Of a stretch of DNA of 64,000 nt, positions 24,941 through 28,787 are shown piece by piece. A program made the translations under genes and the position numbers. Origin of the DNA: Budvicia diplopodorum (lineage in GTDB: Bacteria; Pseudomonadota; Gammaproteobacteria; Enterobacterales; Enterobacteriaceae); contig NZ_WOYF01000001.1 in the NCBI RefSeq assembly GCF_009800925.1, positions 434,001 to 498,000 of the forward strand. Reading direction: 5' to 3'. Positions within the stretch are counted from its first letter, which is position 1; each line of letters begins with the position of its first letter. Below the pieces are notes generated by a model that was not told the origin of the DNA, searched no databases, and was given only the letters and a program-made list of their open reading frames with translations.

Positions 24941-26323
24941 ATGAATCAGCGTTTAAGCCTGGCCGATACCATCGGCTTAGGTCTAATGACTTTCGCCTTC
25001 TTTTTGGGTGCAGGAAATATTATTTTTCCCCCGTTAGAAGGCCAGCTAGCCGGTAGCAATGTGTTATACGCCATGCTCGGGTTTTTAATGACTGCCGTAG
25101 GTCTCCCTCTGGTTTCTATTATTGCCGTGGCCCGGGTTGGCGGTGGTTTACCCGCGATGACCACCGATCTGCCGAAAGGTACCGGAACCTTCGCTGCCAT
25201 ATTACTGTTTATTATCATCGGCCCGGCATTTGCCACGCCGCGAACCGGCCTGGTCGCTTATGAAATGGCCATCAAGCCGCTATTAGGCAGCTACAATATT
25301 GCCGACAGCCAATTCTATATATCGGCGCTAAACGTTACGCTGGACCGAACTCAGGCTATCATTACGACGCTGTTCTTTGTTGTGACGCTGATGTTTTCAT
25401 GGAGCCGGGGAAAGCTGATTGATAACATCGGAAAAATACTCACTCCTGCGCTATTTTTACTGCTTATTTGTCTGGCAGTCGGCGTGGCTGTCGCACCACA
25501 GGGTGATATTATTGCCCCAGTGGAAAGCTATAAAGACACGGCATTCAGCAAAGGTTTTATCGGTGGCTATAACACCATGGATACCTTCGCCGCACTGATG
25601 TTTGGCATGCTGTTAGTTGACGTACTTCGCGGTAAAGGCGTTACCGAACAAAGCGCTACCTACAAATATTTAGTGATCGCCGGTTTCATTGCCGCAGCAG
25701 GATTAGCCTTTGTCTACATATCCCTCTTCTGGCTGGGAGCAACATCGTCAACGGTTGCACCAGACGCCGCTAACGGCGGAGTAGTTCTGGCGGCTTACGT
25801 TCAGGCGCTTTTCGGGCAACCGGGGCAATGGATTCTGTCGTGGGTTGTTATGCTGGCCTGTTTAACTACGGCGGTAGGACTAGTAAGCGCCTGCGCTGAT
25901 TACTTCTCAACGCTAACGCCATTACGCTATCGCCAGTGGGTGATTCTGCTTTGTATTATCTGCGCTACGGTGGCTAACGTTGGTTTAAGCCAGCTGATAG
26001 CCCTGTCAGTACCGGTTTTATTAGCGCTATACCCGCTGACTATTGCGTTAGTAGCCCTCACCTTCATTCGTCGTTGGTTGCCAAACCCTAAGTACGCGTT
26101 TCGTACCGTTATGTTTGTCGCGCTGATTTTCAGCCTGCTAGACGGCATTCGTGGCATTGAAGCGTTGAAAAACGTAGGATGGATTAAATACCTGCTTGAT
26201 GCCCAAACCACGTATATGCCTTTGGCCGATCAGGGAATGGCGTGGGTGCTGCCGACGGCAATTATTATGGCGCTGTCGTTCCTGATTCCGGCGTCTAAAA
26301 AGCCGGTGCTGGAAAATCAATAG
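24941..26323 (+). CDS. brnQ: branched-chain amino acid carrier, BrnQ family
   Basis: 460-residue inner-membrane carrier of the LIVCS family with about 12 helices. The signature FFLGAGNIIFPP (about residue 20) and GGYNTMDTFAALMFGMLLVD match BrnQ, which imports Leu, Ile and Val with Na+ or H+. Identity to E. coli BrnQ looks moderate and the location next to nuo is not that of E. coli brnQ, so this may be a paralogue. The ATG after AGGAAA is chosen. A strong terminator follows at once, so it forms a single-gene unit. Confidence 0.85.
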   Translation: MNQRLSLADTIGLGLMTFAFFLGAGNIIFPPLEGQLAGSNVLYAMLGFLMTAVGLPLVSIIAVARVGGGLPAMTTDLPKGTGTFAAILLFIIIGPAFATPRTGLVAYEMAIKPLLGSYNIADSQFYISALNVTLDRTQAIITTLFFVVTLMFSWSRGKLIDNIGKILTPALFLLLICLAVGVAVAPQGDIIAPVESYKDTAFSKGFIGGYNTMDTFAALMFGMLLVDVLRGKGVTEQSATYKYLVIAGFIAAAGLAFVYISLFWLGATSSTVAPDAANGGVVLAAYVQALFGQPGQWILSWVVMLACLTTAVGLVSACADYFSTLTPLRYRQWVILLCIICATVANVGLSQLIALSVPVLLALYPLTIALVALTFIRRWLPNPKYAFRTVMFVALIFSLLDGIRGIEALKNVGWIKYLLDAQTTYMPLADQGMAWVLPTAIIMALSFLIPASKKPVLENQ

Positions 26324-26350
26324 CCCAGCAAAAAGCCTTATTTGATGGTA

Positions 26351-26377
26351 AAAAGCAGCGGAAACGCTGCTTTTTTT
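26351..26377 (+). terminator. rho-independent terminator of brnQ
   Basis: AAAAGCAGCG, loop GAAA, CGCTGCTTTTTTT: a perfect stem with a tetraloop and a seven-T run, 28 bases after the brnQ stop codon. Confidence 0.93.
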
Positions 26378-26393: not shown

Positions 26394-26518
26394 GTATATA
26401 CATATCCCTATTTACCCCGATAAAACGCCAAATAATATTTTTATTGAGGAAATATCCATCATCCACTTGTAAAGGCGTATATCCGAATGTAATATTCACC
26501 ATATACAATGGTATATAC
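26394..26518. promoter_or_regulatory. GTATAT-type palindromes upstream of alaA
   Basis: Four occurrences of GTATAT/ATATAC lie in the 145 bases before the alaA start: the self-palindrome GTATATAC at 26394-26401, a half site at 26477-26482, and the inverted repeat ATATACAATGGTATAT at 26501-26516, whose right arm is itself part of GTATATAC (26511-26518). The last ends 19 bases before the start codon, across the likely promoter or leader. Because AlaA here carries an antitoxin-like DNA-binding domain, these are candidate autoregulatory operators. Confidence 0.4.
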
Positions 26519-26537
26519 AAAAATAAGGAAGCGTAGT

Positions 26538-28040
26538 ATGACGATCTCAAACGAATGGATAGACCTTGCATCGTTTAAAAGCGGTAACTCTCAGGCACTA
26601 CGTTTAAAGAAAGAGCTATTAGACGCCGCACCAGCCTTCGCTTCCGGTGCCACCCTACGGTTATTATCCGACAGTACTGGCATTATCGTCGCGTCAGAAG
26701 AAAACCAAACTGAATCTAAAAGCGATAACCCGATGGTAACCGCCATGCTGGATGCCGCCGAGCACAGCCTGACGGCGCCTAAAATCATTCAAACCGGCGG
26801 CAAAGAGTCACCCGCAGTTGGTAATAATAAAGCCATCGAGAAATCCAGAAAGCTGGACAACGTTTGCTATGACATTCGCGGACCGGTCCTAAAAGAAGCT
26901 AAGCGCCTGGAAGAAGAAGGCAATAAGGTTCTTAAGCTGAATATCGGTAACCCCGCCCCTTTCGGCTTTGAAGCTCCCGATGAAATTTTGGTCGACGTGA
27001 TCCGTAATCTGCCTACCGCTCAGGGTTACTGCGACTCTAAAGGTTTATACTCCGCCCGCAAAGCCATTATGCAACACTATCAGGCTCAGGGAATTATGGA
27101 CATTACCGTTGAGGATATTTATATCGGCAACGGTGTGTCCGAATTAATCGTGCAGGCGATGCAGGCTCTGCTAAATATTGGCGATGAAATGCTGATCCCG
27201 GCTCCCGACTATCCGCTTTGGACCGCCGCAGTTTCGCTTTCCGGTGGCAATGCCGTTCACTACATGTGCGACGAAGAAGCCGACTGGTTTCCGGATATCG
27301 ACGATATCCGCAAAAAGATTACCCCACGTACCCGCGGCATTGTGGTGATTAATCCAAACAACCCTACGGGCGCGGTTTACAGCAAAGAACTACTGATGGA
27401 AATCGTTGAGCTCGCCAGAGAACATAATCTGATTATTTTTTCCGATGAGATATACGATAAAATTCTTTATGACGACGCTCAGCATCACCCGATTGCCGCG
27501 CTGGCTCCGGACGTTTTAACCATTACCTTTAACGGCCTGTCTAAAACCTATCGGGTTGCTGGCTTCCGCCAAGGCTGGATGGTGTTAAGCGGCCCGAAAA
27601 AGCATGCAAAAGGCTATATTGAAGGTCTCGAAATGCTGGCGTCGATGCGCCTGTGTGCCAACGTACCAATGCAGCATGCTATTCAAACGGCGCTGGGCGG
27701 GTACCAAAGCATCAGTGAATTTATTCAACCGGGCGGCCGCCTGTATGAACAGCGTAATCGTGCGTGGGAACTGATCAATGATATACCGGGTGTATCCTGC
27801 GTGAAGCCGCGCGGTGCGCTGTATATGTTCCCGAAGATTGATGCGAAGAAGTTTAATATCCAGAATGACCAGAAGATGGTGCTTGACCTGTTATTACAGC
27901 AAAAAGTTTTGCTCGTGCAGGGTTCTGGCTTTAACTGGCCTTATCCGGATCACGTCCGAATTGTCACGCTACCGCACGTTGCCGAACTGGAAACCGCTAT
28001 CGGCAAGTTTGGTAAGTTCTTAGAAACCTATAGTCAATAG
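26538..28040 (+). CDS. alaA: alanine aminotransferase AlaA with N-terminal VapB/AbrB-like domain
   Basis: 500 residues. From about residue 99 (AIEKSRKLDNVCYDIRG) to the end it follows E. coli AlaA (405 residues), a PLP class I aminotransferase making alanine from pyruvate and glutamate; the PLP Lys is K336 in FNGLSKTYRVAGFRQG, and NPNNPTGAVYS is present. Residues 1-52 are extra: ASFKSGNSQALRLKKEL closely resembles the swapped-hairpin DNA-binding core of VapB/MazE-type antitoxins, and a low-complexity linker (53-98) follows. There is no ATG, GTG or TTG in frame at the usual AlaA start, so the extension appears to be translated. Start chosen at the ATG ten bases after AAGGA; an ATG ten codons upstream (26508) is possible. 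No toxin gene is adjacent. Confidence 0.92.
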   Translation: MTISNEWIDLASFKSGNSQALRLKKELLDAAPAFASGATLRLLSDSTGIIVASEENQTESKSDNPMVTAMLDAAEHSLTAPKIIQTGGKESPAVGNNKAIEKSRKLDNVCYDIRGPVLKEAKRLEEEGNKVLKLNIGNPAPFGFEAPDEILVDVIRNLPTAQGYCDSKGLYSARKAIMQHYQAQGIMDITVEDIYIGNGVSELIVQAMQALLNIGDEMLIPAPDYPLWTAAVSLSGGNAVHYMCDEEADWFPDIDDIRKKITPRTRGIVVINPNNPTGAVYSKELLMEIVELAREHNLIIFSDEIYDKILYDDAQHHPIAALAPDVLTITFNGLSKTYRVAGFRQGWMVLSGPKKHAKGYIEGLEMLASMRLCANVPMQHAIQTALGGYQSISEFIQPGGRLYEQRNRAWELINDIPGVSCVKPRGALYMFPKIDAKKFNIQNDQKMVLDLLLQQKVLLVQGSGFNWPYPDHVRIVTLPHVAELETAIGKFGKFLETYSQ

Positions 28041-28181: not shown

Positions 28182-28787
28182 ATGAGCCAGAACCAAAGCC
28201 ACTTTTTTGCCTATTTATCACGACTAAAGCTAATTAGCCGCTGGCCTCTGATGCGTAATGTCCGTACTGAAAATGTCTCAGAGCATAGCCTTCAGGTCGC
28301 CTTCGTTGCGCATGCGCTGGCGGTGATTAAAAACCGGAAATTTAACGGCAACGTCAATCAAGACAGGGTCGCCCTGCTGGCGATGTACCACGATGCCAGC
28401 GAAGTGCTCACCGGCGATCTGCCCACGCCTATCAAGTACTACAACCCCCAGATTGCCCACGAATATAAAAAAATTGAAAAAGTCGCACAACAAAAGCTGA
28501 TTGAAATGCTGCCTGAAGAAATTCAGGAGGACTTCCGCCATATTCTGGATGATAGCTATTACACTGAAGATGAAAAACTGGTGGTCAAACAGGCTGACGC
28601 GTTGTGCGCCTATCTGAAAAGTCTGGAAGAGCTGTCAGCCGGAAACAACGAATTTAAGCTGGCTAAAAAGCGGCTGGAAAAAACTCTAAAGCTCAGAGCC
28701 AGCCCGGAAATGGACTATTTTATTAAGGTATTTGTCCCGAGCTTCAGCCTCTCGCTAGATGAAATTAGTCAAGATAGTCAGATGTAA
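28182..28787 (+). CDS. yfbR: 5'-deoxynucleotidase YfbR
   Basis: 201-residue HD-domain phosphohydrolase (E. coli 199) that dephosphorylates deoxynucleoside 5'-monophosphates. Metal ligands are H35 in [11 protein letters not shown] and H70-D71 in [10 protein letters not shown], with a later Asp in [11 protein letters not shown]. The ATG after GAGG is used; an in-frame upstream ATG at 28092 adds unconserved residues. It follows alaA as in E. coli. Confidence 0.95.

Follow-up and report, generated by a model that had tools for sequence, protein, structure and literature searches.

Few enzymes bring a DNA-binding domain of their own, and the classical example is the trigger enzyme PutA, a proline dehydrogenase whose DNA-binding fold is a ribbon-helix-helix. 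PutA binds promoter DNA directly (PMC9132996). The MocR regulators, such as GabR and PdxR, join a GntR winged helix to a class I aminotransferase-like domain and are often autorepressors (PMC5320631). A different kind of self-control is found in toxin-antitoxin modules. VapBC of Shigella flexneri represses its own operon via inverted repeats over the -10/-35 region (PMC3384007), and the Kis-Kid module does the same. Some antitoxins, such as VapB-1 of nontypeable Haemophilus influenzae (NTHi), bind DNA well only together with their toxin (PMC3302801).

Here, we describe an alaA gene from Budvicia diplopodorum that resembles each of these systems in part. It lies in a stretch of 64,000 nucleotides (contig NZ_WOYF01000001.1, positions 434,001 to 498,000), hereafter the window, and codes for a VapB-like domain, a linker, and the alanine aminotransferase AlaA (Table 1). 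Like PutA, the product is an enzyme with what appears to be its own N-terminal DNA-binding domain, which would act on its own locus, although both the DNA-binding fold and the enzyme are different. Like GabR and PdxR, it places a predicted DNA-binding domain before a dimeric fold-type I aminotransferase; unlike the MocR proteins, in which a GntR winged helix is paired with an aminotransferase part that serves as a sensor, it joins a VapB-type domain to a full AlaA orthologue. With the antitoxins S. flexneri VapB, E. coli MazE, and Kis it shares domain homology, the GNSxA.R contact motif, and a putative inverted-repeat operator over the -10 box of its own promoter. It departs from them in having no toxin partner gene, in being joined to a complete metabolic enzyme, in carrying lysine (Lys24) in place of the conserved proline of the RLP motif, and in having a linker where antitoxins have a toxin-binding tail. 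We found no description in the open-access literature of an AbrB/VapB/MazE domain fused to an aminotransferase or to a working housekeeping enzyme.

Table 1. Features of the fused alaA locus, in window coordinates
Feature	Position	Strand	Basis
brnQ, branched-chain amino acid permease gene; upstream neighbour in a transcription unit of its own	24941..26323	+	ORF; also upstream of fused alaA in loci L031-L035
Terminator-like hairpin after brnQ	26350..26375	+	Sequence scan
Putative -35 box TTGTAA (TTGCCA in most relatives)	26467..26472	+	TTG and 17-nt spacer in 10/10
Putative operator arm 1, GTATATCC, inside the promoter spacer	26477..26484	+	Invariant in 10/10
Putative -10 box TAATAT (TAGGAT/TAGCAT in relatives; TAGAGT in the metagenome-assembled genome)	26490..26495	+	Sequence comparison
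Putative operator arm 2, ATATAC (inverted), at the predicted transcription start	26501..26506	+	Invariant in 10/10; arm spacing 16-17 nt
Further half-sites; in the window a perfect palindrome, GTATATAC	26511..26518	+	At least one more ATATAC/GTATAT downstream in 10/10, at varying distance
Shine-Dalgarno-like AAGGA	26525..26529	+	AAGG or AGG kept at the same place in ten sequences
Fusion gene (VapB-like domain, linker, AlaA; 500 aa)	26538..28040	+	ORF and homologue comparison
VapB/MazE-type swapped-hairpin domain, residues 4-53	26547..26696	+	hhalign over residues 12-52, probability 96.6; reverse HMM search
DNA-contact loop and hinge helix (by homology), SFKSGNSQALRLKKELL, residues 12-28	26571..26621	+	pN 0.003 versus pS 0.708, 45 pairs
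Conserved short helix (predicted), NPMVTAMLDAAEH, residues 64-76	26727..26765	+	pN/pS 0.24; helix at 65-77 in low-confidence models
Variable linker, residues 77-99	26766..26834	+	pN/pS 0.56; length variation
Complete AlaA, residues 100-500, catalytic Lys336 (E. coli Lys240)	26835..28037	+	4CVQ alignment; active-site comparison
yfbR, downstream neighbour	28182..28787	+	ORF; order kept in relatives

The fused gene and its N-terminal domain

The gene is a single uninterrupted reading frame. Residues 100-500 of its product match E. coli AlaA over the full length (PDB 4CVQ; E 1.4e-247), with about 99 additional residues in front. Identical counterparts of Tyr15, Ile17, Arg18, Tyr68, Tyr129, Tyr210, Lys240, and Tyr333 (E. 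coli numbering; PMC4094517) are invariant in six fused proteins, and by sequence the AlaA part appears to be a catalytically complete enzyme with all checked active-site residues kept. An earlier examination of the window (the sequence-only reading) had proposed that the two parts are made as one protein, since the usual start position of AlaA offers no in-frame start codon, and that E. coli AlaA lacks the extension. The sequence comparison supports both proposals: in nine of ten distinct homologues, the expected AlaA start position contains none of ATG, GTG, and TTG (L122 has GTG), and E. coli AlaA, which has no DNA-binding domain, begins at the equivalent of residue 97. Moreover, the start at 26538 and its Shine-Dalgarno-like element are conserved across the ten homologues. 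The start codon is GTG in Budvicia aquatica (L031 5001) and ATG in the other members read. A longer frame beginning at 26508 was rejected; its start is not conserved and falls within the operator region.

Profile comparisons support the membership of the N-terminal domain in the VapB/MazE/AbrB antitoxin family, as the sequence-only reading had suggested from motif likeness. The comparison set comprised 12 VapB/MazE proteins, six of them encoded beside VapC, PIN, or MazF genes, which were collected with a hybrid query sequence built for that purpose alone. Against this set, hhalign returned an E value of 6.6e-10 for the pair and a score of 53.7, while 200 column shuffles averaged 10.0 and reached 18.95 at best, so that none of the 200 equaled the real score. 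The tool's own comparison agrees (probability 95.1). In the reverse direction, a VapB/MazE HMM searched against the 4,171 ORFs of the loci recovered the fusions at E values of 7e-6 to 1.7e-4, with the next clearly unrelated ORF at 1.4; the remaining matches were small antitoxin-like ORFs, several of which adjoin PIN or MazF genes.

Searches with a single N-terminal sequence were less sensitive. Pfam gave no match, with PF04014 missing single sequences, and neither PADLOC nor phmmer against the PDB gave a usable one. All NCBIfam matches of single sequences fell below the cut-off, and every one was to a VapB or addiction-module antidote model. By the refuting condition that the sequence-only reading had set itself, taken narrowly as a profile match of one sequence, the assignment would fail because Pfam is negative, but the more sensitive forward and reverse profile tests overturn that verdict. 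An hmmsearch of the domain profile against the PDB placed VapB chains at E values of 0.5-1.6, intermixed with ribosomal S7, and was not counted as evidence. AlphaFold models built on six-row alignments were too poor to use (mean pLDDT of 55 for the domain and 36 for the full length); the AF2 monomer of the domain displayed a strand-helix-strand-strand order and nothing further, and Foldseek found no meaningful match for these models. A GntR-type winged helix was not indicated, as the Pfam search of the fusion yielded no GntR match. Relative to VapB, the domain is about 5 residues longer after the helix; this difference and Lys24 are points against the reading proposed below.

Distribution, neighbourhood, and constraint

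The family Budviciaceae is small, and its members are bacteria of gut and water. When 392 genomes of the GTDB family were searched in six frames with a profile, the extension was detected in 10 genomes from 5 of 154 genera: Budvicia aquatica, Limnobaculum allomyrinae, Pragia fontium, Leminorella grimontii, and one metagenome-assembled genome (MAG) are among the carriers, and all belong to Budviciaceae. Within two carrier genera, every genome examined has the extension (4/4 and 2/2). Overall, all ten Budviciaceae genomes examined carry it and no other sampled genome does; in a second sample of 395 genomes spread over the order, it was found solely in the window's own genome. On the tree, the ten fused AlaAs group in a single clade with 100/98 support, and one gain suffices. 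No strong stand-alone relative of the domain was detected among the 395 genomes of the order, and a search of plasmids and phages for a stand-alone ancestor found none. Under the best explanation, a single event in a Budviciaceae ancestor would have joined the domain to the front of an intact AlaA, with no toxin gene next to it.

In the window and its relatives, the gene order is brnQ-alaA-yfbR, with all three genes in the same direction. The order has changed along with the fusion, in that brnQ now stands next to alaA; lrhA is the neighbour of alaA in E. coli. In all Budviciaceae loci read, brnQ is directly upstream of alaA, and it sits between alaA and lrhA wherever lrhA was seen. In Pragia, a glycosyltransferase gene (L033 1358-2452) lies between nuoA and brnQ, where the loci of Budvicia, Limnobaculum, and Leminorella have lrhA upstream of brnQ.

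None of the six loci (the window and relatives) has a toxin gene among brnQ, alaA, and yfbR, in keeping with the earlier claim that no toxin adjoins the fusion. This bears on the idea that AlaA passively carries a domain that still works as an antitoxin, neutralizing a VapC or MazF toxin from another locus. The homology of the domain is indeed to antitoxins, and toxins of the VapC/MazF type occur in Leminorella genomes and in the MAG. However, neither PIN/VapC nor MazF gives a match over the cut-off in the window's own genome or in most of the others (PIN in 2/10 and MazF in 3/10 of the fused genomes), a separate antitoxin-like ORF lies near most of the toxin loci that were found, and conservation is lowest in the segment that follows the DNA-binding domain, with which antitoxins grip their toxin. 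Because no toxin gene adjoins the fusion, and because matches over the cut-off are lacking in the window's genome and few among the fused genomes, we regard a toxin-neutralizing role as highly improbable.

Selection was assessed with ten distinct fused genes in 45 pairs. The strongest constraint in the protein falls on residues 12-28 (pN/pS 0.004), compared with 0.073 for the whole domain, 0.047 for AlaA, 0.24 for the helix at residues 64-76, and 0.56 for the linker, all of which are rough ratios because synonymous sites are near saturation. Asn17, Arg22, and Lys25 are invariant among the fused proteins. When matched through the GNS-x-A-x-R motif, Asn17 and Arg22 correspond to the MazE DNA contacts Asn11 and Arg16 (PMC4803016), and Lys25 corresponds to S. 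flexneri VapB Lys18, which was modelled close to the DNA backbone (PMC3384007). The presence of the extension in all ten Budviciaceae genomes, together with near-zero amino acid change at residues 12-28 against saturated synonymous change, indicates that it is more than a chance addition to AlaA, and constraint this extreme argues that the cell produces the domain and makes use of it. Residues 64-76, just after the domain, follow the pattern (N/D)P(M/L)(V/I).AMLD.A and are possibly a remnant of, or a replacement for, the toxin-binding helix of an antitoxin.

These results also bear on whether the extension is removed or bypassed, by an internal start near residue 70 or by proteolysis, such that little fusion protein exists. 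An in-frame ATG is present at residue 70/71 in all ten sequences (residue 70 in the window gene), and the variable linker may be sensitive to proteases. Nevertheless, a shorter internal product is unlikely because this Met has no visible Shine-Dalgarno sequence, the extreme constraint lies upstream of it, and a domain that had been separated could still repress. We give this possibility very little credence.

The promoter region and a candidate operator

Upstream of the fused alaA, our analysis adds a feature that goes beyond the claims of the sequence-only reading, namely a conserved, predicted promoter-operator region. All ten fused genes share the pattern TTG-N3-N17-TAG.AT, with inverted arms flanking the -10 box. 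Of the 42 columns in this block, 22 are invariant (mean pairwise identity of 78%), while the preceding 49 columns include none (46%). A strict sigma-70 scan did not call the window's own promoter, where the -35/-10 match is weak, and so the promoter assignment rests on conservation. The candidate operator can be narrowed to about 30 bp.

The first arm is absent upstream of alaA in those unfused relatives that could be read. This absence weighs against the proposal that the VapB-like dimer domain is only an extra dimerization or stability module for AlaA and that the operator belongs to another regulator. The palindrome could indeed serve a different regulator, and the N-terminal arm of E. coli AlaA is part of the dimer interface. 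Yet the strongest constraint is on the DNA-contact loop and helix and not on the core strands, and the operator accompanies the fusion only. We therefore judge a purely structural role unlikely.

Pattern searches then bear on how far control might extend. A strict search of six genomes located the alaA site in each, together with two further matches, both within coding sequence; a relaxed search yielded no second site conserved upstream of a gene, and most of its other matches were inside reading frames, although searches of this kind would miss degenerate sites. The two extra strict matches and most of the relaxed ones were dismissed as chance, as they fall within reading frames and have no conserved place upstream of a gene. 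Across seven genomes, the alaA site is the sole conserved match upstream of a gene. A trigger enzyme that conveys alanine or pyruvate status to a wider regulon would fit the PutA- and MocR-like architecture of an enzyme with a DNA-binding domain, and the window's own genome does contain a second intergenic match, GTATAT-N20-ATATAC (G000 C10:36535-36566; L124), downstream of a response-regulator gene. That match is absent from the other genomes searched, and the sequence evidence points to control of alaA itself, which leaves targets beyond its own promoter distinctly improbable.

Probable autorepression of alaA

We propose that the VapB-type domain, its toxin lost, probably now acts as a built-in autorepressor of alaA. 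Negative autoregulation is the best reading because the layout of the putative operator is that of AbrB-type antitoxins and the contact surface is preserved in the fused domain. DNA binding by the domain is supported indirectly, through the conserved operator-like inverted repeat in its own promoter. E. coli AlaA is a dimer, and its first ten residues build part of the interface (PMC4094517). Dimerization of the fused AlaA would bring together two copies of the VapB-type domain, as the swapped-hairpin fold requires; the dimer would then bind the inverted repeat GTATATCC-N16/17-ATATAC around the -10 box and block RNA polymerase, such that AlaA would repress its own synthesis. The NTHi VapB-1 precedent counts against autorepression to some degree, as the fusion locus has no toxin that might assist binding.

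The least certain step is the last one, in which a substrate or cofactor in the enzyme's active site would shift DNA affinity through the N-terminal arm. A domain attached at this arm would be kept dimeric and could sense the state of the substrate, and its position beside the dimer interface and the active-site "plug" hints at possible control by substrate. The sequence-only reading had envisaged a PutA-like coupling of alanine or pyruvate status to transcription, which the fusion may provide. In such a scheme, the domesticated antitoxin domain would be a ligand-gated autorepressor, with the state of substrate or PLP setting promoter occupancy via the N-terminal arm; we offer this tentatively, as a possibility with somewhat less than even chances. 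If autorepression by the fusion is true, a piece of a selfish toxin-antitoxin module would have been turned, in Budviciaceae, into a one-gene feedback circuit for amino acid metabolism.
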